Positions 13,890-54,135 of a DNA stretch of 56,337 bases are shown here, piece after piece. The notes below the pieces were generated by a model, which saw only the letters and a list, made by a program, of their open reading frames with translations, did not search any database and was not told where the DNA came from. The stretch comes from a virus, in IMG/VR virus record IMGVR_UViG_3300050821_001742, positions 1 to 56,337 of that record. One strand, 5' to 3'. Made by a program: the position numbers and the translations under genes. Every line of letters begins with the position of its first letter. Position 1 is the stretch's first letter.

Positions 13890-16800
13890 TTATGCGTGCC
13901 CTATCCCACCGGGGCGTTTCTGTTTCTCATCGGCGCCTGCTGGCACGGGGCCTTGCAGGGCGCTAAGGCCGGGGCCTCTATATCCCGGCTGGACACTCAA
14001 CGGAAGAATACGCGCTGATTTCACTGACGGAGGAGACGTGGGTTTAACAGGTGGAGGTACAACATTATTCAGTGAATTTTCCAACTTCTTGGATTGACGA
14101 GCCGCGAGAAACTTCTCCCCGCCTTTATCCAAAAGCTTTGAAACCGCATATCCCGACAAGCCGCCTTCTGCCCCGCCAAGCCCGACAACGCCAAGAGCTG
14201 ATCCAACCATACCTGCGTATTTACGAACTGCGGCCAATAAAGCTGGAGCCGTATCCGAATTGGTTCTAGCATATTTCGGGATGATAGTAAGCTTCAAGGC
14301 CTTCTGGTAACGATCCATCAGTGCCAGTTCAGATGGCGAGTAAAGCTGTTCGGCGATGGTCTTTCCCGATCCATTCAGAAATTCATTGATTGCCTGCATG
14401 GCCTTTTGAGCTCCCGGCTGATCTTTGCCGGCGGCTGCTTGGGTGAGCTTCTGCCATACGCCTTGCCTAATCGCTCCCATGGCGTCGCTATTCGGCCCAA
14501 CGATGCGCTCGATGGCTTGTAGTGCTCGTGTGACATGGCCGGGATTACCAGCACCAAGAACCTTGAAGACACCATTCGCGATTTCCTCAGGTGTAGCCGT
14601 TCCTTGCACCATTTTTTGAAAGACAGCCTTCGGAGCACCGCCTAGATCGGCCCCGCCAAATGTATCCTGATAGGCCTGTCGTGTACGCTCTGCGGTCCGG
14701 GTAGCCGGTAGCTGCTCAATGTTCCGGTCAAGATCCTGGATGCCTTGGGCATGAGCCCGCATCGCCGCGCGCTCCTGCTGGGTGAACATGCGCTGCGCCA
14801 GCGTCGTTCCGGTAAAATCATTGATGCTCTGCGCAGATTTGGCCGGATCCACAACGCCTGCGGAATTACGGACCTGTGACGCCTTCTGCCACATGGCTTG
14901 CCGTAGCGCGCTCCAGCTATCCGAATCCGCCCCCAACACGTTTTCAAGACGATCGGCGATCCGAACCGGCAAACCGGAGTTACCGATTTTTCCCGATCCA
15001 ATGATCATATTGGCGGTTTCTTCCGGCGTAGCATTACGCTCCACTATCCTGCGCATGGCAGTTCCTACATCATCACCAGCGCCCTGAGGGCTGAATGTCC
15101 GCCGATACCTGGAATAGGATGCCCGTGCTTCCTGCAAGGCTTCCAGAGCCCTCGGGTCCCCAGAGAACAACCCTTCTGTAATGGCGCGCTCAACCTGGCC
15201 ATCGAAACCATGGATGATTCCCTGAACGGCTCGTGCATCGGTAGGATTGGTCCTAGCAGCCTGATAATAGGCCACCAGTTTTTTCCGCATCTGATCAATG
15301 CCGCGGAGATTTACGCCAGTGATTTCATCAGGATTGGGCTCAGCATGTGGACTGGCACGGTTTTGGATGCGTGGCGCCGACATATCATCCAGAGCCTGAA
15401 TGGCCCGAGAAGCTGCGGGCGTAAGCTGATCATCAATGATGATCGGGTTATCACCCCCGCCAATTTCATTGCGGACACGCGTTCCTAGGCCGCGCACAGC
15501 ATCCGCACGGAATTCACCGGGTAACTCTCCAAATTCTCTGTATCGAGCCTGAAACTCGGCGCGGTTTTCAGCCGCGGCCTGTCGAACATTGGCCCCGACG
15601 ACTTCACCGGCCTCGGTTGGATTGGCAATCGGAAGCGAACTTCCCCTTATGGCATCACTCAGAGCGCGATTTTGATCCGACAGAATGCCGCGCTGGGATT
15701 CAGCCTCGGTCGCTGCCTGTTGCTCTGTCTGGGTCTGTAATGCCCTGGCTTGGGCAGCGCGGTCTGAAACTTCCGAGCCAACAGTTGAGGCTGCATCCGC
15801 AGGCGTATCAACCACAGGGGCCATTCTAGCCGTCTGCTGGCCTACCGCCTGTCCTCCTGCTTGCGTATCCTCGAATTGCTTCTGGAAAAAGTCAGCCGCT
15901 TTCTTTTGAGCTTCTGGCCCATAAGCCCCTCGCGCCGCCATATCTTCATAGCGGATCGTATCCAGATCCCCCGTTGCTTGCCCTCGCGACAGTTTGATGC
16001 CGAATTCGTCTGCAGCCTGAGTGTTGGCTACGGTACCCGGCGCGACTGGAGCCGGCGTTGATATCGGACCACGAGGTGTAAACCCACGAGGCCTAGCAGC
16101 GGATAGCGCCGTGTCCACATCACCCTTGGCAGTCTGGTACATCTGCTCAGGGTTATCCTTGGCAGCCTGCTGGGGATTAATGATTGATCCGACCAAGTGC
16201 TCGGCATCGGCCAAGGGATGGCCTATCAATGATCTTGCCGGGCCAGCAATCAATGTTGATGGAATGATTGAAGCCGCGCCAAGCACCATCTTTCCGGTGT
16301 CGGCTACATCATTCAATGAGTTGACCATGGCTCCCGGATCGAAGAACGAGGCATTAGGACCGCTATCCTTGGCTGCTTGAGCCTCGTGACGAGCATGCCT
16401 TTCATTCCATGCATTTTTGATATTTCCGATCTGTTCGGCACCAGCTTGGTACATTTCATGCGGAACATCTGTGATTGCCTTCGGAAGATACGAGGCAATT
16501 CCGCCAGATGGCGCAGTTTTCGCAGGGGTGTCGAAATCGTCAAACGGATTTGATGCTGGCGCGCTCGTATGCTGGTTATCAAAGTCGTCAAACGGATTCG
16601 GCGAGCCTCCGTCTGCCATGTGGACACGACCGCCCTCAGCTCGCTTGTTGTAGATGTCCTGGATGCCCAAGCCTTTCGCCAATGGATTATCATCGTTCGT
16701 CGCGGCAATCTGTTCACTCTGCCACGGCTCACGCACGTATCCCGCACCCTGAGGCACAACCGGAGTTTTGTCGTTGCGCCTATCCTCAATGTCTTCCGAG

Positions 16801-16949
16801 CGTCGGAAATCAGCAAACCGAGGCTTTCGAGCTTTGCCACCGTCAGCACGCTTGGCTTTATGCTCAGGCTTGTGCAGTCCAGCCAATGGGTCATAAGCGA
16901 TCAACCGCTTGAACCTCTCCGCTGCCGTGCTCTGTGGATGATGCTTCAT
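13890..16949 (-). CDS. large internal virion (ejection) protein
   Basis: 1019 residues, mostly helical with Ala/Gln-rich and low-complexity parts, as in ejection proteins stored in podovirus heads. The N-terminus has the shared Gly-Gly motif (RADGGKA near 36, RAEGGRVHMADGG near 112). Two homologous segments of about 100 residues begin near 639 and 784; both start with ATPEE, contain a RQ..WQK core and end after an AINEF/SINDF-like helix. A hydrophobic Gly-rich segment near 930-960 could insert in a membrane. Start is the ATG fused to the upstream stop. Confidence 0.6.
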   Translation of the reverse strand: MKHHPQSTAAERFKRLIAYDPLAGLHKPEHKAKRADGGKARKPRFADFRRSEDIEDRRNDKTPVVPQGAGYVREPWQSEQIAATNDDNPLAKGLGIQDIYNKRAEGGRVHMADGGSPNPFDDFDNQHTSAPASNPFDDFDTPAKTAPSGGIASYLPKAITDVPHEMYQAGAEQIGNIKNAWNERHARHEAQAAKDSGPNASFFDPGAMVNSLNDVADTGKMVLGAASIIPSTLIAGPARSLIGHPLADAEHLVGSIINPQQAAKDNPEQMYQTAKGDVDTALSAARPRGFTPRGPISTPAPVAPGTVANTQAADEFGIKLSRGQATGDLDTIRYEDMAARGAYGPEAQKKAADFFQKQFEDTQAGGQAVGQQTARMAPVVDTPADAASTVGSEVSDRAAQARALQTQTEQQAATEAESQRGILSDQNRALSDAIRGSSLPIANPTEAGEVVGANVRQAAAENRAEFQARYREFGELPGEFRADAVRGLGTRVRNEIGGGDNPIIIDDQLTPAASRAIQALDDMSAPRIQNRASPHAEPNPDEITGVNLRGIDQMRKKLVAYYQAARTNPTDARAVQGIIHGFDGQVERAITEGLFSGDPRALEALQEARASYSRYRRTFSPQGAGDDVGTAMRRIVERNATPEETANMIIGSGKIGNSGLPVRIADRLENVLGADSDSWSALRQAMWQKASQVRNSAGVVDPAKSAQSINDFTGTTLAQRMFTQQERAAMRAHAQGIQDLDRNIEQLPATRTAERTRQAYQDTFGGADLGGAPKAVFQKMVQGTATPEEIANGVFKVLGAGNPGHVTRALQAIERIVGPNSDAMGAIRQGVWQKLTQAAAGKDQPGAQKAMQAINEFLNGSGKTIAEQLYSPSELALMDRYQKALKLTIIPKYARTNSDTAPALLAAVRKYAGMVGSALGVVGLGGAEGGLSGYAVSKLLDKGGEKFLAARQSKKLENSLNNVVPPPVKPTSPPSVKSARILPLSVQPGYRGPGLSALQGPVPAGADEKQKRPGGIGHA

Positions 16950-18730
16950 CACTGGCCCAAATATTGACGGGACGCGCCGACACCGTATTTCTGATCGAAT
17001 GCGGGTGCCAATTCAGGATTAGCTTTCAGCTTTGCAACCGCCGCATCCGGTGCCTTTGGCTTTTCATAGGTTGGCTCTACATCCTTGGAAACGGCATCAA
17101 TCGCCTTTTTGGTGGATGGCAACAGATACTTGTCGAAATCCTTCCTGTAGGTACCACTCTCGTATTGTTGACGGAGGCCCTTCATCTGGCCACCCATAAG
17201 CTTGGTGAACTGATCGAAGATGCCAAAAAGCTGATCCGGCGAATCAGCATTACGAGCCCGGTTGGACATTTCATCACGATCTTGGAGCGCTGTCTGACCT
17301 CCAACAATCGTCTTGGCAATTTCCGAACTGACCGCCTGCTTGATCGAATCGAAGTTCGTCGTTAACGGAGAACCCGTCATCTCCCGGTATTTGTTCACCA
17401 AGGAATTGACGATTGGGATTTGTCCATTTTTCAGAGCCGCCGCCGCTTGACGCAGCGTATCCAAATGGTCCGTGGCCACATTGAGGGAGCGAACCGTTCT
17501 AGCCTCAGGTCCACCTACAAAATTGTTGTATGCGCGCTGTGATGCCGCGTAGTTCTGTTCGTTGAAATCCTTGTTGTACCGTTTGGCATCAGCGACCGCC
17601 GCCCCTCTCACGCCACCGCGCGTAGGCAGATCGGACGGGCTTTCTTCATAGTCCCCGATCATCTTAGCCCGCGCCGCTCTTGCTGGCGGAACGCTCTTTA
17701 GAAATTCGTCGCCAGTCGCATCAGGATTAGCGGCTGTCGGTGCCGTTGAAGGTGGCGTCGGGGACGTACTAGCCGCGATCGGCTTTCCAGACGAATCCGT
17801 GATTACCTTTTTGTTCGGATCCACCCATCCATAGGTCTTTTTGGCCAAACCAGTGTCTGGATCAACAGCCTCGCTGATGACGCTCCAAGACGGTTTGTAT
17901 TCCTTTTCCTCAACCGCCTTGTTGTGCCGGATATTCTCGCCCAAGGTATCGGTCTTGAGTTTCATTTCCTCCGCATGCTGCTGGGCCTCACGAGACAGTT
18001 TCGCGGCTTCCTCAGCCACTTTGCGATCGCGCTCCTCACCAGCACCATATGATGACATCCCGGCTAAGCCACCTTCGCCGATCGCATTACCGAGATTCGG
18101 CGATCGAGACGCCAGCATTCCGAGCCCTGCGGCCAACAACCCAGAGCGGGCGTTGTGGGACATGTTAAACAGCCCCAGACCGCCGCCGTTATCAGTGGGT
18201 GGTTGGCTGACAGGCTGCCAAGTCGCTCCCATCGGATTGGTGGTCGGCGCCGCAGATCCAACACCCGGCGCAAATGCCATGGCTGAACCATCCGCAGCGC
18301 CTGTGGGAGCCCCGCTGGGCTTGCCCGTGATCTCAGGCGGCAAAGGCTCGTCATCATCATTAGACGCAGCAGGAGCCACGCCAGAGCCCGGCAACGGGTT
18401 GCCTGCGCGCCAGTCATCCACTGCGGCTTGATCCGGCATCCGATACGGCTGATCCGGGTTCCATACCGGCGCCGCCGCAACGCCTTGATTTGGCGTTTCC
18501 GCAACCGGCGTTTGAACGCCTTGACCTTTACGCAGCATATCATACGCAATTGCCCTGTTCTGGTCTCCAAATGGATCGTCTGGTGCGCCACCATCGGCAT
18601 ATTCAGCTACACCACCGCGGGCGAATCCCTCGCCGTAATCCGCAGCGCTCAACCCTGGCAATGGACTAGAACTGGAACCGCCATAGGAATCCGTCAGGAC
18701 ATTACCGCCGCCATATGACGGGCCACTCAA
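16949..18730 (-). CDS. ejection-type virion protein; downstream part of an amber-split frame
   Basis: 593 residues if started at the TTG at 18730, which has no convincing ribosome site. The same frame is open upstream through 18877 to an in-frame TAG at 18880-18878, which is the stop of the neighbouring gene, and no ATG or GTG occurs in those 49 codons. The first Met is near 18550. Content is Gly/Pro/Ser-rich at the N-terminus with the motif ARGGVAEYADGG, then a helical region. Read-through of the TAG would give a 947-residue protein. Otherwise this is a broken or poorly initiated gene. Confidence 0.55.
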   Translation of the reverse strand: MSGPSYGGGNVLTDSYGGSSSSPLPGLSAADYGEGFARGGVAEYADGGAPDDPFGDQNRAIAYDMLRKGQGVQTPVAETPNQGVAAAPVWNPDQPYRMPDQAAVDDWRAGNPLPGSGVAPAASNDDDEPLPPEITGKPSGAPTGAADGSAMAFAPGVGSAAPTTNPMGATWQPVSQPPTDNGGGLGLFNMSHNARSGLLAAGLGMLASRSPNLGNAIGEGGLAGMSSYGAGEERDRKVAEEAAKLSREAQQHAEEMKLKTDTLGENIRHNKAVEEKEYKPSWSVISEAVDPDTGLAKKTYGWVDPNKKVITDSSGKPIAASTSPTPPSTAPTAANPDATGDEFLKSVPPARAARAKMIGDYEESPSDLPTRGGVRGAAVADAKRYNKDFNEQNYAASQRAYNNFVGGPEARTVRSLNVATDHLDTLRQAAAALKNGQIPIVNSLVNKYREMTGSPLTTNFDSIKQAVSSEIAKTIVGGQTALQDRDEMSNRARNADSPDQLFGIFDQFTKLMGGQMKGLRQQYESGTYRKDFDKYLLPSTKKAIDAVSKDVEPTYEKPKAPDAAVAKLKANPELAPAFDQKYGVGASRQYLGQ

Positions 18731-18877
18731 TAGCCCGTTGGAATCCTTGTTATTCGCCGCAATGATCTTGGAATAATCGAACGTCGGAGCGGTATTGCTC
18801 GGCGCCCCTGGAGCGCTACCGGCATGAGGCGCGGCATTCCCAAGGCTGATTTGGGGGATCCATGACGGTGCATTGCC

Positions 18878-18880
18878 CTA
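18878..18880 (-). other. in-frame amber codon between two ejection-protein frames
   Basis: The TAG ends the 304-residue frame starting at 19792. The following 642 sense codons, down to 16949, are in the same frame. TAG is an ordinary stop elsewhere in this window (for example at 29583), so general recoding is not suggested. Leaky read-through or a recent nonsense mutation are the options. Confidence 0.8.
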
Positions 18881-19792
18881 AGGCGATTTGGCGACACCGC
18901 CGCCATCGAAATGCTGGACATCGCCAAGGCTGACACGGCCACCGCGGGCCAGGAACGAAGCCGCCGCCAAGCCCAGTCCCGCATACTGGGAAAGCTGATT
19001 CGGGGCTGGCGCTGTCGTCTGGCCGGTCGAACTGGAGCCCAAGCCAGGCCCCACCCCGGTATCAAGCCCAGCCAGCCATTGTGTCTGCTGGTACGGATAG
19101 GCCTGCTGCTGGGAATACGCGGCCTGATTCGCGGCATCAATCTGCTGTTGGGTCTGCTGCTGTACGGTGCCTGCCCCAAGCTGAGCTCCAGCGCCGGTCA
19201 ATGCCGCATTCTGTCCAGCCAACCCAAAGTTTGCGATCGATCCGGCCGCAGCCAAGGGATTCTGCTGGAATTGCTGTCCAGCCGTAGCCAGCCCCTGCTG
19301 GTATGAATTGCTGTAGAGCCCAGCGATAACTGGAGCCTGAGAAAGCGCCTCCTGTCCGGCAAGATTGGCCTGCGCCACTCCGACACGGTTTCCACCCAGC
19401 GCACCTTGGGAAATGGCATTCCCTGTCAGTTGCTGCTGCTGCTGCGCGTTCTGATTATTGAATTGCGCCTGCGTCACATCAATGACGTTCTGCGTATAGG
19501 GATTCTGATATTGCTGGATCTGTGCGGCAGTAAGCGGATTAGCAGCACCCGCCGCCAACCCAAGCGCCTGATTGATTGCCGGCTGAGCCTGCCCAGAGGC
19601 AGCGTTGATGCCCGATATACCCGCCTGCTGCTGGGAATTGATCGGGGCGGTTAGTTCGCCCGTATAGGCCTGATAGGGAGTAGCAGCGACGCCTTGAGCG
19701 CGATCAAGAAGGGCCTGATAGGCGGATGTAGCCTGCGGAGCGGCTGAGGTAGTGCTTGAGCTTGTTGAAGTGTTGGACCCCTTTCCACACAT
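18878..19792 (-). CDS. Gln/Ala-rich internal virion protein (gp14-like)
   Basis: 304 residues, very rich in Gln, Ala, Gly and Asn with long helical Gln runs, like small internal core proteins of podoviruses. The N-terminus MCGKGS is followed by a Ser/Thr stretch. The C-terminus carries ARGGRV and FDGGGVA. The first bases of the gene are repeated at the start of the adjacent HNH gene. The frame continues past its TAG into the next gene. Confidence 0.55.
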   Translation of the reverse strand: MCGKGSNTSTSSSTTSAAPQATSAYQALLDRAQGVAATPYQAYTGELTAPINSQQQAGISGINAASGQAQPAINQALGLAAGAANPLTAAQIQQYQNPYTQNVIDVTQAQFNNQNAQQQQQLTGNAISQGALGGNRVGVAQANLAGQEALSQAPVIAGLYSNSYQQGLATAGQQFQQNPLAAAGSIANFGLAGQNAALTGAGAQLGAGTVQQQTQQQIDAANQAAYSQQQAYPYQQTQWLAGLDTGVGPGLGSSSTGQTTAPAPNQLSQYAGLGLAAASFLARGGRVSLGDVQHFDGGGVAKSP

Positions 19793-20314
19793 TTAAGCCC
19801 CCGAAGAATGAAATTCACCATGCAATTCCTTTGCTTTGGCGAGATAGGCTAAATGGGCCGAAAATGGATCGTCGAAGAAGCCGACATGATGTCTCTTCCC
19901 GTGCTTGACCACTAAAGCAATAAATTTACCTCTCTGTTTGCTGAACTGTACTCCTTTGTATCCCGAGGTATTGTCTTGCCGCAGCCCGCAATTAGCATGA
20001 TTTTGCGAGTGAGAAGCCTCCCTCAGGTTGGCTAATCGATTGTCATCCCTGACTCGGTTGATGTGGTCAATTTCATCTCTCGGCCATACGCCCTGCGACA
20101 GGAGCCAAGCTAATCGATGGGCCAAATAATAATGGCCATCAACCTTAATCCGCCAATGCCCGCTGCTAGTATATCCACCAGCTCTTTTGCCGATTGGTGA
20201 TCGATCACTGAGCTTGACCTTCCACCGAAAAATTCCGGTCTCTGGCTCATAAGAGATAACTTCATTTACACGGTCGAAATCTAGTCCGTATTTGCCATCT
20301 CTAATCCCACACAT
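19793..20314 (-). CDS. HNH homing endonuclease with AP2 domain
   Basis: 173 residues. Core HNH at 65-106 (AHRLAW, then IDHIN, DDNRLANLR, then SQN) and an AP2-type DNA-binding domain at 114-168 (SGYKGV through a terminal KELHGEF helix). It cuts one specific site to spread itself. Its stop is immediately followed by the ATG of the ejection-protein gene, and both genes begin with the same eight bases ATGTGTGG, suggesting it inserted at that start codon. Paralogous to the genes at 35073 and 46484. Confidence 0.85.
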   Translation of the reverse strand: MCGIRDGKYGLDFDRVNEVISYEPETGIFRWKVKLSDRSPIGKRAGGYTSSGHWRIKVDGHYYLAHRLAWLLSQGVWPRDEIDHINRVRDDNRLANLREASHSQNHANCGLRQDNTSGYKGVQFSKQRGKFIALVVKHGKRHHVGFFDDPFSAHLAYLAKAKELHGEFHSSGA

Positions 20315-20346: not shown

Positions 20347-20964
20347 CTATCCCCGGTGCCGTGCTGATGATTTGGCCAAATATGCCTGATGGCGCTCTCT
20401 CTTTTGTCGTTTATCATCTTGAATATCTTTTGGAAAGGGCGTTTTCCAAAAGTCTTCGTTGGTCAAGTCGTTACCGTTGATCCATTTCGGGTTAACCACG
20501 AAATACGCCCCCGCCGGATAACCGAGGATCTTGCGGTAAAGCCTGACCTTCCCAGCCATCCGGTTATTCGTAATGATGCCTATGACTAGCGGCACCCCGA
20601 TATCATCGGAGCATTTCTTGGCGAAGTTCACCAAAGCCTCGGCGTGAGGCATATCCGGCCCGTTGAACTTCCGCCGAAACGGCCTGCGCACGTAAGAAAA
20701 AAGCTCCTCCAGATGCGTCTCCTCACTTGACCAAAAGCTTGTCATCACAATCATGATGATGGCCTCAAGCGAGCCAGGTGCCCCGATTAGCCCGATAATC
20801 CCACCTTCTCGGTTGAAGGCGCGATTCAGCATCGCTTTCACCTTCTCCTCGGACATTGATACCAAGCCGTTCTCGGCATGAATCTCCCGGCACATCTCCA
20901 TGATTTCAGCCTCCTCGGACTTGGAGGCGAGGCGGACGATCGGCGCAGGGACGGTGGTCAGCAT
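20347..20964 (-). CDS. GNAT-like acetyltransferase
   Basis: 205 residues with a GNAT plan: an N-terminal strand and helices, a beta region with GGIIGLIG (residues 54-61), the strand EELFSYVRRPFR that precedes the acetyl-CoA loop, a long helix with Ala and Cys, and a C-terminal YRKILGY segment. The classical Q/RxxGxG/A loop is not obvious, so activity is uncertain. Substrate unknown. Such genes occur among virion genes of podoviruses. Confidence 0.55.
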   Translation of the reverse strand: MLTTVPAPIVRLASKSEEAEIMEMCREIHAENGLVSMSEEKVKAMLNRAFNREGGIIGLIGAPGSLEAIIMIVMTSFWSSEETHLEELFSYVRRPFRRKFNGPDMPHAEALVNFAKKCSDDIGVPLVIGIITNNRMAGKVRLYRKILGYPAGAYFVVNPKWINGNDLTNEDFWKTPFPKDIQDDKRQKRERHQAYLAKSSARHRG

Positions 20965-21206
20965 CAATTCATGTCCAAGGCATCAGGCTTGCTAGTTTGC
21001 TGCGCAATGATCTTTGCCAAGGAATCATGAAGTTGCTGAGCGCACAGCAAGTCCATGCGGAGGTTGGCCGTGATGGTTTCGGCGAGTTCAACCTTGCCAT
21101 CTTTGGTCGGAAGAAAGTTTGCTGTACTGAACGCAAAATTGCAAACGCCATTACCAAAACCTGAGACCGCAACACTATTCACGAATACGACTGGGACTTC
21201 TGCCAT
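20964..21206 (-). CDS. conserved small phage protein
   Basis: 80 residues. A beta-rich first half with Gly-Asn is followed by an amphipathic helix (LRMDLLCAQQLHDSL). AGGA lies seven bases before the ATG. Likely a minor virion or assembly protein because of its position next to the tail hub. No named family. Confidence 0.5.
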   Translation of the reverse strand: MAEVPVVFVNSVAVSGFGNGVCNFAFSTANFLPTKDGKVELAETITANLRMDLLCAQQLHDSLAKIIAQQTSKPDALDMN

Positions 21207-30657: not shown

Positions 30658-31104
30658 CTATGTCAGATCCACGCCGATAACGTAAACGTCACAAGTAGCC
30701 GCGCTGCCTTGTGCGGTAGTGAGAGATAAATAAACCGGCGTTACCGCAAATCGGGTAACCAATGGAGTAGCGGCAACTGTGGCATTGAGCAAAACACTAG
30801 CGGAAGTTAGAGCGCTGTAAATCTGTGTAGCGGCAACGATAGGCGTTCCTCCTTTGGCCGTTGTGGGATAAAAACCACCCACAGCGAGAGTCAATGATGC
30901 CGAACAATTTGTGACAACAATACCCGTAATCTGATAGACGGCCACTGCCATAGGGATGGCTTGATCTGTCGCCACATTGAAATTAGCGCCGCGAAGCGTT
31001 CCGATAACACGCTGAGTGCCGGCAACGCTTTGCGGATTTGTTACATCCGCAGCCATGGCTACCGAAGTCCATAGCAGCAATAGAATCGATGCGATCTTTT
31101 TCAA
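30658..31104 (-). CDS. exported beta-rich virion-module protein
   Basis: 148 residues from a TTG start fused to the upstream stop. Residues 1-18 are a clear Sec signal (MKKIASILLLLWTSVAMA). The mature part is beta-rich with Thr, Ala and Val and two Cys. Lying among virion genes, it may be a secreted or virion surface protein. No family recognised. Confidence 0.5.
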   Translation of the reverse strand: MKKIASILLLLWTSVAMAADVTNPQSVAGTQRVIGTLRGANFNVATDQAIPMAVAVYQITGIVVTNCSASLTLAVGGFYPTTAKGGTPIVAATQIYSALTSASVLLNATVAATPLVTRFAVTPVYLSLTTAQGSAATCDVYVIGVDLT

Positions 31105-33822: not shown

Positions 33823-35073
33823 TTAGGCCTGAGTTATCCCATAGAATGGCGCAGGGTTGTTCGGAGTTCCAGCGATACAGTTGAACACAGGCATTGTCTG
33901 TACAACCATAAAACGCGCAATGCCATTGGCCGTCGCGCTGTTTGTAATAGCCGTTAGCGCTCCGCCTGAACCAACTTGAACCGTACCACGCACATCACCT
34001 GTAGTCGCCGTCGCCGGATTGGTTGTCACGGCTGCAAGGAATCCGGTCTGGTTAATGTTGTTGATGCCGTTCCATGAATAGTTCAGATATTCATAACGAT
34101 CCTGCCTCATCGGAAGCCCGAACGTATCACCCACCCCAACCGAATAGCTGCCGGTCGAATCGGTATAGTTCGGCGTGACCGAGGCCACATACTTGAAGGC
34201 CTTCTTGCCGTAGAATGTTCCGGCAGTCGTCGTCGTGATGTTGATCGTTTCGCTCATCGCCTGAGCGTGCACGTCAAATCCACGCGCCGTAATCGTGCCG
34301 GTTACCGCAGCAGCCGTTGTCGTGATGGAAAGATTGCGCGAGAGTGCTGCTACCGGATTGAACAATCGGAACAGCCCCGCCGCCCACTCAATCGACTGAG
34401 CAGTGGCAACCGGAGCACCTGGCCCAAACTGAGTTGCCGGCGGAAGGAACTGGTTGAACTGATTCGCATTGCCGATCGGCGCGTTGCTCAACGAACCAGT
34501 TGGAACTGGAAACACATTGATTGAGGTTGTTCCGGTGATCACGGTGACCTGCGTCAATAAGCTCAGCGTTTTTCCCGCGTTGCCGGCACCGCCGATGCAG
34601 AGCCACTGACCAACCGTGAACAAGGTGGTATCCACCACAACCACAGCCGAGCTAGCCGCCGTGGTCGTTCCCGTCGTGAACCCGAAATCCAACGCCATCA
34701 CGTTCTGAACGGCAGTACCGCCGAACGGAATGAACGGAACACCAGTAGCCAACGAAGGTACGCCGGCCGTCGTATTGCCAGGCGCAACCGTTACCAACGT
34801 AAGAACCGTGCCAGACACGATACCCGTCGCCACCGCCACCACATTCGCCGTGGTCGTAGCAGATGGAATATTGTCCACCGTCACGATCGACGGATTGTCC
34901 AAAAATCCAGGAACACGCGCTGCACCAGTGCCATCTTTCTGAAAGAACCCAGCCCGAAGCGCCGGAAAAACCGTGCCCTGATACACATAGTTCGGCCCAT
35001 CAGTCGGTGCCACCGTGCCATCAAGCATCGCGCCAATGGAGTTGGCCGGGCCTCTAAAGTTCGTATCCGTCAT
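33823..35073 (-). CDS. beta-rich capsid-associated protein
   Basis: 416 residues, Thr/Val/Ala/Gly-rich beta protein without a signal peptide, encoded two genes after the capsid protein. Residues 1-45 contain a GPNYVYQGTVFPALRAGF segment that looks conserved. Decoration or minor capsid protein is the likeliest role. Its ATG overlaps the stop of the preceding HNH gene. Confidence 0.5.
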   Translation of the reverse strand: MTDTNFRGPANSIGAMLDGTVAPTDGPNYVYQGTVFPALRAGFFQKDGTGAARVPGFLDNPSIVTVDNIPSATTTANVVAVATGIVSGTVLTLVTVAPGNTTAGVPSLATGVPFIPFGGTAVQNVMALDFGFTTGTTTAASSAVVVVDTTLFTVGQWLCIGGAGNAGKTLSLLTQVTVITGTTSINVFPVPTGSLSNAPIGNANQFNQFLPPATQFGPGAPVATAQSIEWAAGLFRLFNPVAALSRNLSITTTAAAVTGTITARGFDVHAQAMSETINITTTTAGTFYGKKAFKYVASVTPNYTDSTGSYSVGVGDTFGLPMRQDRYEYLNYSWNGINNINQTGFLAAVTTNPATATTGDVRGTVQVGSGGALTAITNSATANGIARFMVVQTMPVFNCIAGTPNNPAPFYGITQA

Positions 35074-35867
35074 CAGTCAGGCTCCAAGCCGGGAGAGGCG
35101 TTCGCATTCATCTGAGCGCGCAATGCAGGAATGTCATCTTCAGGAACGTCCAATTGCTGAACGTAATCGATAACCTTTTTGGCATACTCACGGATATGAT
35201 GAACGTCGTCACCATGAGTAAGCATAAAACTCCAGCAATCCAAGCACAACATTCCGCGCGGCGTTCCTAGCGTTGTGGTGTGATATCGGATTCCATTAGT
35301 TGATTGGCAAATTTCGCATTCCTTGGCGTTCATGTAGTCGCCACGAACTCGCTTTGGTTCTGGAGCATGAGCGAATTCACCATGCAATTCCTTAGCCTTT
35401 GCTTCATAGGCCTCTTTAGCCTTCTCCGGGTCAAGAAAATAACCCAGATAGTGGCGCTTTCCAGCATGGTGGATACGAGCTACATAGCCGCCTTGATGAG
35501 GAACCACACCCCGAGATGGTCCGATCAATCGAGTAGTCTTGCGACGTGCAGCATTTTGAGCATGAGTCGCCGGACGAAGATTTGAAATGGCATTATTGGT
35601 TTTATTGCCATCGATATGATCGATAACGCCGGATGGCCAGTCTCCCGTAACGTAAAACCAAGCCAATCGGTGGGCGTACAGCAACTGACCGTTGATACGC
35701 ATCATTAAATATTGAGTACCATCGGCACGAGGCTTTTCGCCAATCGGCTTACCAACAGTGCGGCCGTAGCCGGGCTTTGCCCAACTGAAAACACCAGTCG
35801 CTTGATCAAAATCCATATTTTCCTTCAGCCATTGATGAGTGAAGGAAAGTTCTTTCTTAGACGCCAT
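35073..35867 (-). CDS. HNH-AP2 homing endonuclease with C-terminal zinc extension
   Basis: 264 residues from an ATG with GGAG eight bases upstream; the frame extends further 5' but without a ribosome site. HNH core 66-105 (AHRLAW, IDHIDGNKTNN, SNLR), AP2 domain 115-167. After residue 178 comes an unrelated segment with CEIC (184-187), CLDC (208-211) and a His pair, resembling a separate small zinc protein fused in frame. It lies directly downstream of the capsid gene. Confidence 0.8.
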   Translation of the reverse strand: MASKKELSFTHQWLKENMDFDQATGVFSWAKPGYGRTVGKPIGEKPRADGTQYLMMRINGQLLYAHRLAWFYVTGDWPSGVIDHIDGNKTNNAISNLRPATHAQNAARRKTTRLIGPSRGVVPHQGGYVARIHHAGKRHYLGYFLDPEKAKEAYEAKAKELHGEFAHAPEPKRVRGDYMNAKECEICQSTNGIRYHTTTLGTPRGMLCLDCWSFMLTHGDDVHHIREYAKKVIDYVQQLDVPEDDIPALRAQMNANASPGLEPD

Positions 35868-35989
35868 GACAGTTTCTCCGTGGTTGAATGCCTCAATATT
35901 GGCATAACCACCGAGACTGTCAACAAATTTGTTGGCGTATGAGAAATACACTTTTGGATTTTCTCCAGACTTACCCAATGTAAGTCATT
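35868..35989 (-). other. intergenic region after the capsid gene
   Basis: 122 bases between the capsid stop and the HNH start. It contains an open stretch in frame with the HNH gene that could start at TTG, and the HNH ribosome site. I see no terminator or repeat. Confidence 0.4.
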
Positions 35990-36904
35990 CTAACTGGTAG
36001 CGAATTCGGCCCACGCGCAGCGCGGATCATTGTACCCGAAACTGTATCTTTCATATGCCTTGACAAGTAAATTGTCGGTGACATTATCAACCCACATGTC
36101 CGACTCATACGGAATGCGGAGCATATGGATCAGTCCCTCGATGTTGGTCGTGAGGAACCAAGCGAAGTTGCTGGTGAGGAAGTCCATCACGAGATGGCCC
36201 TCGGGGAGACCGCCGGACAGTGTGAGGATGGCGTTTACGTCGTTGTCCGCCGTGCCAGGGCGCAGCTCGGTCTTCATCAGCCGGATTGCGACTTGCTCCA
36301 GATTCGGCGGCACGATCAGCCGGCGAGCTCGTGCCATGATGCGCAGGCCGCGCTCGTTGACGAACTGAGTTCGCACGTTGGTCATGTCGGCGAGCAGGGC
36401 GGCTTCGTTCAGCGACTTCGGCGTGGCTGAAGTGTTGGCCCAAGTGCCGTTATCGAACGGATGCGCCGTGGAAAACAGAGCAACGCCGTCACCGATGATC
36501 GACGTGTTGTAGACGTTGCCGAGATTCAGGACGTTCGCTGCCTGGATTTCCTTGAACTGTGCAAACGCTTCCTGAAGCTTGAGGTTCGTCGGATTGAACT
36601 GAGCCTTGTACAGATTGTCGTCAATGGCCTTGCGTGTGATCGCGTAACCAAGCGCCACCTCGATATGTACGAATGCCCACGTAAAGCGCTCGCCAGCATT
36701 GTTGTCGAACTGAGTTGCGGCGCCTTCATCCTTCAGGAACGGCAGCGCAACGAACGCCATCTGCGTTGAGCGCTCAACCGCCATTGCGGACTTATGGGTT
36801 TTGAATACTTTGTCCCACTGACGGGGTATCATATCGTAGCTACCCCGAACGTCGAAAAGTCCGGGAAGAAGCTCGGATCGAATATTTGCGAGGGCTATCG
36901 GAAT
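35990..36904 (-). CDS. major capsid protein, HK97-fold Mu gpT-like
   Basis: 304 residues as annotated. The segment ANIRSELLPGLFDVRGSY upstream of the first ATG (36832) is a conserved capsid N-terminus, so the frame must begin earlier. A perfect AGGAGG (36910-36915) lies five bases before an ATT codon at 36904, and an in-frame TAG stands just upstream, leaving ATT as the best start. Later features include a FTWAFVHIEVALGYAITRKA helix region and DGVALFSTAHPF, typical of Mu-type major head proteins. HNH genes flank both ends. Confidence 0.75.
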   Translation of the reverse strand: MPIALANIRSELLPGLFDVRGSYDMIPRQWDKVFKTHKSAMAVERSTQMAFVALPFLKDEGAATQFDNNAGERFTWAFVHIEVALGYAITRKAIDDNLYKAQFNPTNLKLQEAFAQFKEIQAANVLNLGNVYNTSIIGDGVALFSTAHPFDNGTWANTSATPKSLNEAALLADMTNVRTQFVNERGLRIMARARRLIVPPNLEQVAIRLMKTELRPGTADNDVNAILTLSGGLPEGHLVMDFLTSNFAWFLTTNIEGLIHMLRIPYESDMWVDNVTDNLLVKAYERYSFGYNDPRCAWAEFATS

Positions 36905-46483: not shown

Positions 46484-47221
46484 CTAGACATAATTTTCCA
46501 GAACTTCAATCAATGGACGCCCTTTCAAGACTGCTTCAGGCTGGTCTTGGCAAATCTTAACCGTGAAATCAGGATACCATTGAGCAATCTGGTCAAAAAA
46601 TTCGGCTTCAGCGGTAACCCGACCGCACGCCCATAATTCAGGCCTTTCCATATCCAATGGCCATGACTGCCATTCAACATCTAGACCGGAATCTAGCAGG
46701 TTTAACCTTCTAAGCCGCTTCATTTCTTCATCATCAATCTTAGCAAAATTACCGTGAAGTTCGGATCTCTTCTTCAAATAAGCCGCATGGGCGAGTTCAG
46801 CCGTAGGGAATAATCCAATATGAACACGCTGCTTATTGTGACTAATGCATGCTCGCCATTTTCCGTTGCACGGCAACACTCCAGTATAACCCGAAGTATT
46901 TTTCCTTTTCTTTCCAACATTCCATTGGTTTTGCGACTGGGTAGCTTCTCTTAAGTTAATCCAGCGATTATCCGACTTATCGCCGTTAATATGGTCAAGT
47001 TGCTCTTTGGGCCATCTTCCGGTCATCAAGGCGAATGCTAATCGATGAGACTTGTATGCCTTTCCGTTTATACTGATGGTCCAATAACCGTCTTTGGCCA
47101 GATGGCCAGCACGTTCGCCTTTTTTATGCTGTCCAGTCCTTCCGGTTGTTTTAGCTCTCCGAAGTATTCCAGTTTCGGAGTTGTATGTTAAATATTCACT
47201 TACCTCGTTGGCATCAATCAT
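46484..47221 (-). CDS. HNH-AP2 homing endonuclease fused to an extra C-terminal domain
   Basis: 245 residues. HNH core 59-99 (HRLAFAL, LDHINGDKSDNRWINLR), AP2 domain 108-158 (SGYTGV to ELHGNF). Residues 180-245 are an acidic, Trp-rich segment with no HNH or AP2 feature, probably the remainder of a phage gene captured in frame. ATG overlaps the portal stop (ATGA), so it is co-translated with the portal. Confidence 0.8.
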   Translation of the reverse strand: MIDANEVSEYLTYNSETGILRRAKTTGRTGQHKKGERAGHLAKDGYWTISINGKAYKSHRLAFALMTGRWPKEQLDHINGDKSDNRWINLREATQSQNQWNVGKKRKNTSGYTGVLPCNGKWRACISHNKQRVHIGLFPTAELAHAAYLKKRSELHGNFAKIDDEEMKRLRRLNLLDSGLDVEWQSWPLDMERPELWACGRVTAEAEFFDQIAQWYPDFTVKICQDQPEAVLKGRPLIEVLENYV

Positions 47222-51327: not shown

Positions 51328-51550
51328 TGGTCTCATCCTCTCGTTTCGTAAATGAAAACCCACCGTTCTTCACATGCTCGTGGAAAAACTTGCCGATGCT
51401 CTCTCCAGCATCATGCGCAGCCATCATCCGGTCATGCAGTTCCTTCGGTACGTCCGGGTAGTCATAGGTTGCGCTACTACGGAATTTCACGGTTAGCTGC
51501 TTGCCGTCATGGTCTACCGCAGCAATCGTGCTGGATTTGATCTCGGTCAT
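51320..51550 (-). CDS. KTSC-domain protein
   Basis: 76 residues. The pattern SSTIAAVDHDGKQLTVKF, YDYPDVP, then a helix and GKFFHEHVK follows the KTSC domain, a small fold found alone in phages and fused to other domains in bacteria, with suspected RNA-processing links. ATG overlaps the terminase stop. Confidence 0.65.
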   Translation of the reverse strand: MTEIKSSTIAAVDHDGKQLTVKFRSSATYDYPDVPKELHDRMMAAHDAGESIGKFFHEHVKNGGFSFTKREDETNE

Positions 51551-54135
51551 GCTGACCTCCTGCTGAAACCCGGATACATGGGCTTTTTAGGTGCCCCACG
51601 ATGCCTCACTGCATCCAACTCCTGTGCCCGGCGCTCCTCATCGCTGCGAATCAGGCCGGTGTCACGGAGATGCTTGATTGCCTGCGTCATTGCATCACAA
51701 TTATGAACCAAAATTCCATTGGCGTAATAACAATGCGCACCTTCAACTGTGAGATTGTATACGGGCTGCATGTCTTCGGTCCTTCTTTTTCCTATTGGAG
51801 TCGACATTTTGACAAATCGGCGAACAAAATATTCGGCGGCGGTTTCTAATATCGTACTCCGCTCCACAGATAATGCAGTTCCCCCTACCAACAACGGGGT
51901 GGTTATCAAAAACCTTTCCAGACTGATGCAGACTTTCGAAAGCATGCTTCCGGTGCCATTCTCTGCCTTCCTCGGATCTGTGCCACGCCGCTGCCATCGG
52001 CCTAATATCTTCGATGTGTTTGCGTAAGCGCTCAAGACCATTCTTTTTAGGCATCCTTCGATGCACGCCCATCGGTAAACACTCAAGATTAGAAGGCTCG
52101 AAATTGAAAGTATTGTAATCGATATGATGAACATCGTGGCCTTTTGGAACCAAACAGGAGTGGTGATGTTCCCAGATCGCGACATGAAGCCCTTTTGCTT
52201 TTTTGCGTCCAACATTTCTGGATGATTGCGAGAGATAATATCTTCTCTTTCCGCCCATCCTTCGATAAACGACCCCGTTAAATTCGATCTCATCCGGCGC
52301 GCTGTGTTCATCATATCGCATAGATTTACCTTCGAAAGCTTCGTAGCCTGAGTGGTACTATCAATTGCGACAAAACCAAAGTCAAATGTAAAAATTGGGT
52401 GATTCGGCGTAGCCAATAACCCATGTCTTTCAATGATGCTACGCATTCCAGTCATGCCCGTAGCGGTTACTTTATGCCATCCAATTGGAGTTAAAACTTT
52501 GTCTTCTAATCGAATGTTTTCAATCGGGACATTACCGCGCAATGTAGCAATCATAGTGCCAGCAGCAAAACACAAATCGTCATGCGCCCCATACGGGAAA
52601 ATAGCCATATTATCAATTACACGGGTCGCCCACTCCCGATCAGGCGCATAGATCATCTCCTGTGAGAACGAAGCCTGAACTGCCAAGACACGGGCGTACT
52701 TATCGCCCTTTGGTTCCACGAGCTGAATAGTCCATCCCTCTCGACCATGCGAATTGCGCAATGATTGAGCTGCAGAGATCCCTGACGCCTTACTCTCGAT
52801 CAGTAGCTTATCCGCCTTGAACCGCTTGCACGTATCCGCGACCCATTCAATCAGTCCCCAGTGGGGCATACAGCGGCGCCGGTACATCGATTCATGTTCG
52901 TTGGGATCAACGTCCATCCGAGGCCCGGAGAACTCCAGCCGCTTCTCCCAAGCGTGCACAAGCATGGCACGGTTATAGCCGTGTTCATTCTGGAACACGC
53001 CAAGGATAACCAATGCGCTCGGATCATTCTTTTCTTCCTCGGTGTAGGCACCGTCCAAGCTCGCCACGATGTACTCAAACGGCGGGAACTTCTGCCCATC
53101 ATTGGTCATGTAGACCTCAGCCGGCATCCACCATTCACGCTTGATCAGGCCGCCGCCGCGGGCCTCGGGGGTTTGCTGGAGCTGCGAAGCTGTTGCGAAT
53201 GGGCCAAGTTCAATTTTCAGGCTCTGAACCGATCTCTCGGAAAACCGCTCAGACCAAGCCAATTCCCCTTCGCAATCCTCCTGATTCGGTCGCCACCGCG
53301 GATCAACCCAGCCGATCGATGTCGTATATGGGTCGCCGTTCTCGTCAGCCTGCCAAACAAACTCCATTGGTATGCAGAGATGGGTATATGGCAGGTTCAA
53401 TCGCAGGATCTCGCCCGACACATCCGCCTCACCCACCCGTTGCGATATGACGATTTTGGCATCGGTTTCCATGTTGTTGAGCCGAGACGACAGCGATTCC
53501 CGAAACCATCGGTTTGTCTCATCCATGACCGCCTTGGATTCGCTCTCTTTCACGTTATTTAAATCATCACAGATCGCTCGATTGCCGCGTTTGCCAGTGA
53601 CCGAGCCTGTAACCGAGCTCGCGAGCTTCCAGCCATGCTTTCGGTTGGAAACCATCGTCATGCCGTTCTGGCGGATCGCGACATGAGGATACATGGCCTG
53701 ATAATCGGGCGACGACACCAGATCACCGAATCTCTGATTGTCGCGCTCGGTATTGCTTGAGCTATACGAGAACGTCACATATCGAAGATGGGCGAGGTCC
53801 ATCGCCCCCCATTCCCATGCTGGCCAAAACACATTGGTCAACAGCGACTTCATCGCTCCAGGGAACACATTGATCAGGAGATTGGTTATCTCGCCGTAAG
53901 TCACCGCCTCAAGGTGCTCACAGATTGCCTCCAGGACCCACCCATCCACGAATGGCGTGCCAGGCTCCAGCACATGCCAGAAGTACCGCACGAAGCTCAG
54001 CAGGCCGCCCTGCCATACCCCATCCTCATCCCGGTAACCTCTGGTCTGGTGCTCGACCTTGGCTATCCTGCGGCGCTTCTCGGCTAAGGCTGCGTTGAAG
54101 CGCTCAAGATCGGCACGAGGGATGGGGCGGTTCAC
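51547..54135 (-). CDS. terminase large subunit interrupted by an intein
   Basis: 862 codons from a GTG overlapping the upstream stop. ATPase domain: Walker A-like FPGAMKS (91-97), Walker B RAICDD (186-191). The RNase H-like nuclease starts near 380 (ASLDGA) and ends with the HDD motif (518-520). Residues 522-812 are an intein, starting at Cys522 and ending His-Asn before Cys813. After splicing the enzyme would have 571 residues, normal for the family, with HDD directly joined to a CDAMTQAIKHLRD helix. Cuts and pumps genome DNA into the head. Confidence 0.85.
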   Translation of the reverse strand: MNRPIPRADLERFNAALAEKRRRIAKVEHQTRGYRDEDGVWQGGLLSFVRYFWHVLEPGTPFVDGWVLEAICEHLEAVTYGEITNLLINVFPGAMKSLLTNVFWPAWEWGAMDLAHLRYVTFSYSSSNTERDNQRFGDLVSSPDYQAMYPHVAIRQNGMTMVSNRKHGWKLASSVTGSVTGKRGNRAICDDLNNVKESESKAVMDETNRWFRESLSSRLNNMETDAKIVISQRVGEADVSGEILRLNLPYTHLCIPMEFVWQADENGDPYTTSIGWVDPRWRPNQEDCEGELAWSERFSERSVQSLKIELGPFATASQLQQTPEARGGGLIKREWWMPAEVYMTNDGQKFPPFEYIVASLDGAYTEEEKNDPSALVILGVFQNEHGYNRAMLVHAWEKRLEFSGPRMDVDPNEHESMYRRRCMPHWGLIEWVADTCKRFKADKLLIESKASGISAAQSLRNSHGREGWTIQLVEPKGDKYARVLAVQASFSQEMIYAPDREWATRVIDNMAIFPYGAHDDLCFAAGTMIATLRGNVPIENIRLEDKVLTPIGWHKVTATGMTGMRSIIERHGLLATPNHPIFTFDFGFVAIDSTTQATKLSKVNLCDMMNTARRMRSNLTGSFIEGWAEREDIISRNHPEMLDAKKQKGFMSRSGNITTPVWFQKATMFIISITILSISSLLILSVYRWACIEGCLKRMVLSAYANTSKILGRWQRRGTDPRKAENGTGSMLSKVCISLERFLITTPLLVGGTALSVERSTILETAAEYFVRRFVKMSTPIGKRRTEDMQPVYNLTVEGAHCYYANGILVHNCDAMTQAIKHLRDTGLIRSDEERRAQELDAVRHRGAPKKPMYPGFSRRSA
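51700..52572 (-). other. intein in terminase large subunit (291 residues)
   Basis: Block A starts at Cys1 (CFAAGTMIAT). Block B is TPNH (55-58). Blocks F and G are VYNLTVEGAHCYYANGILVHN followed by Cys+1. All residues for class 1 splicing are present. The section from about residue 84 to 277 is covered by an HNH gene in another frame, so the intein frame there encodes an unrecognisable but stop-free sequence. Confidence 0.85.
51743..52321 (-). CDS. HNH endonuclease nested in the intein in another frame
   Basis: 192 residues. HNH core 46-89 (HVAIWEHHHS, then HDVHHIDYN, NFEPSNLECL). A four-Cys zinc finger at 149-170 (CIIC and CSPIC). GAAGG lies seven bases before the ATG, which is inside the intein coding sequence in the +2 frame. 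The stop TGA lies 43 bases before the intein end and the last 10 codons overlap the intein's block F. It would be translated independently of the terminase. Likely the homing enzyme for this intein. Confidence 0.8.
   Translation of the reverse strand: MRYDEHSAPDEIEFNGVVYRRMGGKRRYYLSQSSRNVGRKKAKGLHVAIWEHHHSCLVPKGHDVHHIDYNTFNFEPSNLECLPMGVHRRMPKKNGLERLRKHIEDIRPMAAAWHRSEEGREWHRKHAFESLHQSGKVFDNHPVVGRGNCIICGAEYDIRNRRRIFCSPICQNVDSNRKKKDRRHAARIQSHS

Follow-up and report, generated by a model that had tools for sequence, protein, structure and literature searches.

Programmed stop-codon read-through of a virion protein yields the A1 protein of phage Q-beta, a system in which the in-frame stop is conserved and selected and is followed by a long conserved in-frame extension. 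In crAss-like phages, TAG is reassigned mostly in late genes, with many in-frame TAG codons and often with a suppressor tRNA, which is sometimes undetectable (PMC7886860). Phage T7 replicates in cells that contain about ten copies each of a host factor whose synthesis requires passage through a stop codon, and tiny amounts of a protein can therefore suffice (PMC12645430). Nothing specific was found in the literature on natural amber mutations in phage virion genes.

The DNA analysed here, called the window throughout, is the whole of the 56,337-base virus record IMGVR_UViG_3300050821_001742, which encodes a terminase, a portal, a capsid-type protein, tail fibres, an ejection-type protein, and a GH108 endolysin. 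On its minus strand, positions 19792-16949 make up one frame that begins with an ATG at 19792, is interrupted by a single TAG at 18880-18878, and then stays open to a TGA at 16951-16949, giving 304 sense codons before the stop and 642 after it, with neither a frameshift nor a second stop in the latter. The original prediction had described the frames 19792-18878 and 18877-16949 as sharing one register and split by a single TAG, and its coordinates, frame, and stop are exact. Like Q-beta A1, the locus has an in-frame stop ahead of a long conserved in-frame extension, and like the crAss-like phages it has an in-frame TAG in a late gene; it differs from the former in that its stop is unique to one contig, and from the latter in having one TAG, no suppressor tRNA, and TAG in use as a terminator. 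The stop is very probably a recent nonsense allele in a single ejection gene, either real or an artefact of one consensus base. The features of the locus are listed below with reference to the two nearest relatives, L004 (hereafter G1) and L005 (hereafter G2), which share 85-88% DNA identity with the window over most of the ejection gene:

19793-20314, minus strand: HNH homing-type endonuclease (phrog_99, E = 1.3e-64; HNH_3), whose stop directly abuts the ejection-gene ATG; present in G1, where the ejection gene is fused, and absent in G2
18878-19792, minus strand: N-terminal module of the ejection protein, matching phrog_4287 and ending in the in-frame TAG
18878-18880, minus strand: interior amber codon TAG, aligned with Trp in G1 and G2
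18728-18730, minus strand: TTG, the first in-frame candidate start after the amber codon, with a weak AGGA at a spacing of 11
16949-18877, minus strand: C-terminal part of the ejection protein, 642 codons, with no credible start of its own and fused in relatives
13890-16952, minus strand: next late gene (1020 aa, 90% identity to its G2 counterpart), whose GTG overlaps the stop of the C-terminal module

Relatives were gathered by scans of IMG/VR and GTDB genomes, which gave 81 distinct copies, 67 of them complete. In all 67 complete copies, a single fused ORF of 710-1,540 aa runs across the site, and no matched region contains a stop; a stop conserved at the same place, as expected for programmed read-through, occurs in 0/67. 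The window's N module is 96-97% identical in protein sequence to the corresponding part of the fused G1 and G2 proteins, and its C-terminal part has 93% identity to G2 over residues 93-642. Residues 2-286 of the upstream frame are assigned to phrog_4287, "DNA ejection protein" (E = 3.7e-10); the downstream frame has no match in PHROGs and aligns with the C-terminal part of that protein in relatives. Judged from these alignments, a single ejection protein is encoded, with one half as its N-terminal and the other as its C-terminal module, in place of the two ejection proteins originally proposed, of which only the upstream one carries the profile match. Location in the virion and ejection with the DNA are suggested by the profile's name and the late-gene position. 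The fused PHROG 4287 homologues of G1 and G2 have the N-terminal module, the gene order, and the fused frame in common with the window, at identities of up to 97%, and differ in that every complete copy found is uninterrupted, the stop being present in this contig alone. An exact 30-mer spanning the TAG had no match in viral contigs, a set that possibly excludes the window's own and very near records. Because the gene is uninterrupted in every close relative found, a very recent mutation, one of two explanations in the original prediction, or else a base that is erroneous or in the minority, is more likely than a read-through signal kept by selection.

The codon alignment places Trp at the TAG position in both G1 and G2, and the flanking codons are identical or synonymous to theirs. 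Across the family, this position is the first aromatic residue of a P-[WYF]-x(3-10)-[WYF]-[IV]-P motif, which occurs in 46 of the 75 relatives whose length permits the test, with W at this site in 16, Y in 26, and F in 4. The stop therefore hits a conserved residue of one protein and does not mark a natural gene end of the family. Since the source is a metagenome consensus and the TAG is a single-base difference from the codon conserved in the nearest relatives, a sequencing or assembly error in a phage that truly lacks the stop would be a special case of the nonsense-allele reading; it is judged unlikely, as the large conserved genes of the contig are otherwise free of stops and frame breaks and the consensus is thus otherwise clean.

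Codons past the TAG are still under normal purifying selection in the window lineage. Over the stretch aligned in all three genomes, codon changes found only in the window number 7 nonsynonymous to 29 synonymous, compared with 6:29 in G1 and 8:35 in G2 (14:64 for the two relatives summed). The first 92 columns past the TAG hold 2 nonsynonymous changes of the window lineage and are conserved like the rest, and the other 313 codons, compared between the window and G2 only, have a dN/dS of 0.037. A window branch on which this stretch was never read should have accumulated about 70-88 nonsynonymous changes, and the share of the branch spent unread is at most about 8-11% (95% upper bound). Either the stop is therefore young or the downstream part is still translated, and going by these codon counts, the constraint would be expected equally from a recent mutation and from ongoing leakage or suppression. 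Coding constraint on the extension, as read-through requires, is thus present and is predicted likewise by a recent mutation, for which a sense codon in the closest relatives and an extension free of decay are both found.

Ongoing leakage would take the form of unprogrammed, low-level read-through or a host suppressor yielding a few full-length molecules, sufficient for a protein of which little is required, so that both forms coexist. The constrained codons are compatible with it, as is the T7 precedent, from a different setting, of phage growth supported by rare misreading of a stop codon and of tiny amounts of protein sufficing (PMC12645430), and the site, lying in a predicted linker, should accept any inserted residue. 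Against it, the stop is absent from all relatives, and the contig has neither a suppressor tRNA nor a stimulatory structure: a tRNA search of the contig returned Gly-CCC alone, with no amber suppressor, and the 121 nt from the TAG fold the same as shuffled sequences (z = 0.00). Efficient general suppression would be disruptive, because other genes end in a single TAG and their read-through would add extensions of up to 234 codons. Leaky read-through is possible, with nothing here pointing to it specifically, and is considered improbable. The other explanation originally offered, read-through to a minor 947-residue form, has nothing positive in its favor, and a programmed signal is unsupported: searches for a suppressor tRNA, reassigned TAG codons, structured RNA downstream, and a conserved internal start all came up empty, the stop occurs in no relative, and TAG is an ordinary terminator here. 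Simple leakiness may nonetheless occur.

Reassignment of amber to an amino acid in the late genes of this phage has a parallel in crAss-like phages, mostly likewise in late genes (PMC7886860), yet it is for the most part refuted already, TAG serving as a terminator here, and is vanishingly improbable. A reassigned code would show many in-frame TAGs in conserved genes and no TAG terminators, and here conserved genes have one interior TAG, and at least four genes, including those at 35990 and 20347, end with TAG. The 99%-conserved gene at 20347-20967 ends with TAG in all three genomes, and the genes at 30658, 35990 (capsid-type), and 37544 terminate with TAG where relatives use TAA or TGA. Interior stops were scanned in non-overlapping gene sets, as a version using all six-frame ORFs gave mostly antisense noise. 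Among about 40 genes per comparison with each of the two nearest relatives, no large conserved gene other than the ejection gene contains an interior stop, and the lone stop is on that account more than chance; the remaining four alignments flagged for the window, in either direction, were short segments at small ORFs that are divergent or doubtful.

A separately initiated C-terminal protein, starting at the TTG at 18730 or a later ATG, would make the amber the point of a renewed gene split. The TTG is the 50th codon past the TAG, so that the original count of 49 preceding sense codons is borne out; its description as the only candidate start is not, as in-frame ATGs follow at 18538, 18439, and beyond, all with weak Shine-Dalgarno matches and none better than that of the TTG. 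The further claim that the TTG lacks a ribosome site holds insofar as its match is only weak, and loses force as evidence because genuine genes here often lack one as well; several, including the one starting at the ATG at 19792, have no Shine-Dalgarno match of 3 bases or more. At the position aligned to the TTG, which lies within the fused ORF of either relative, G1 has CTC and G2 has TTG. Reinitiation via a +1-frame ORF, whose ATG lies 7 bases past the start of the stop codon and whose TGA overlaps the TTG at 18730 (TTGA), was judged a coincidence because the TGA/TTG pair is present in G2 and absent in G1, yet the gene is fused in both.

Such a split is favored by distant phages, in which the modules are separate genes, and by the 304-residue length, the size of their N proteins. 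In Bradyrhizobium phage ppBeUSDA76-2 (WAX24423/WAX24424), a 367-aa gene for the N module and an S74 domain abuts a 496-aa C gene (TAA/GTG); MW202496 has the modules as separate 412-aa and 514-aa genes, and Chlorobiaceae phage CV-1-33 has a stand-alone 294-aa N gene. Placed on a family HMM built from fused relatives, these proteins fall at positions 147-342 (N plus S74) and 723-1004 (C) for ppBeUSDA76-2, 8-334 and 671-1016 for MW202496, and 3-285 for the N protein of CV-1-33. The three phages resemble the truncated state in keeping the N module apart from C, with N proteins of 294-412 aa, but theirs are true separate genes with their own starts, whereas the window has no such start, and the S74 chaperone domain that ends two of their N genes is missing from it. 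Past the TAG there is neither a strong ribosome site nor a conserved start, the codons just beyond it are conserved as a new intergenic stretch would not long remain, and no close relative is split. Two genes with a conserved start near 18730, which would have spoken against the original interpretation, are seen in no close relative, and the two-gene arrangement of the distant phages comes without a start at 18730. A renewed split is highly unlikely.

The truncation under the nonsense-allele reading may fall at a tolerable place. A model of the uninterrupted G2 protein has a helical N module to about residue 282, a low-confidence region at about 283-606, and then a better-predicted helical C-terminal region; because mean pLDDT is 51, only such broad features count. 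The stop is predicted, with low confidence, to fall in a disordered linker, at about G2 residues 283-606. A fold search of the PDB gave no significant match, a viral fold search returned only uncharacterised phage proteins, and no solved homologue was found by sequence. Because the stop lies in a predicted linker and the modules are separate in distant phages, the 304-residue product, the size of free-standing N proteins, may be able to fold and function alone, which would soften the mutation's cost. A tolerated leaky amber restoring the two-polypeptide state of distant phages, with mostly N-module protein and few full-length molecules, is very unlikely; if true, the virion would have unequal numbers of the two modules.

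The preferred course of events is that a recent nonsense codon arose in one gene whose product, a DNA ejection protein internal to the virion, has two modules and some 947 residues; the codon replaces a conserved aromatic residue in the predicted linker between the modules. Translation as written would give a 304-residue protein with the N-terminal helical module, and the 642-residue remainder would be made only through chance leakage. The allele would be either a true variant of young age, which may coexist with others in the population, or a metagenome-assembly artefact affecting one consensus base. Two points are presumed: host ribosomes stop at the TAG, and the allele is recent, as opposed to one made tolerable by read-through. 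Counting against it, such an allele might be expected to disappear soon from a virion-protein gene if the phage cannot tolerate truncation. A rhizobium-like bacterium is the probable host: two Rhizobium lusitanum genomes and one Rhizobiales MAG contig are among the genome-scan matches, and the best named match of the C module is a Bradyrhizobium phage.

As a mutation, the stop is ordinary, and it advises caution: before read-through is proposed for a single in-frame stop seen in one metagenome contig, relatives should be consulted. The ejection protein here is a fusion of two modules encoded separately elsewhere, sometimes with an S74 domain left mid-protein, and whether the modules need to be joined is therefore a testable question.

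Peptidase_S74 chaperone domains are normally C-terminal and self-cleaving. A pattern count puts such a domain, opening with Ser-Asp, mid-protein in 17 of the 81 distinct relatives (L009 residues 281-329, L010, L011, L020, and others), directly ahead of the motif in which the amber codon falls; for four of them, a Pfam match exceeding the curated cut-off confirms it. As the domain is self-cleaving, fused ejection proteins that bear it may be processed into two. The ejection protein of G1 has the N part and the opening half of the C part in common with the window, and its C-terminal segment past about alignment column 697 is quite different (dN about 0.77), which suggests module exchange in the ejection gene.

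Two genes resembling the HNH endonuclease at 19793 lie at 35073-35978 and 46484-47221 on the minus strand, and all three stand between late genes. The large terminase (51547-54135, minus strand) has an intein-like insertion at about residues 522-812, at DDL/C, with sub-threshold Hint_2 and Intein_splicing matches; in G1, the terminase is interrupted elsewhere, after RNAI, by a different intein-like insertion, and the G2 terminase lacks one.
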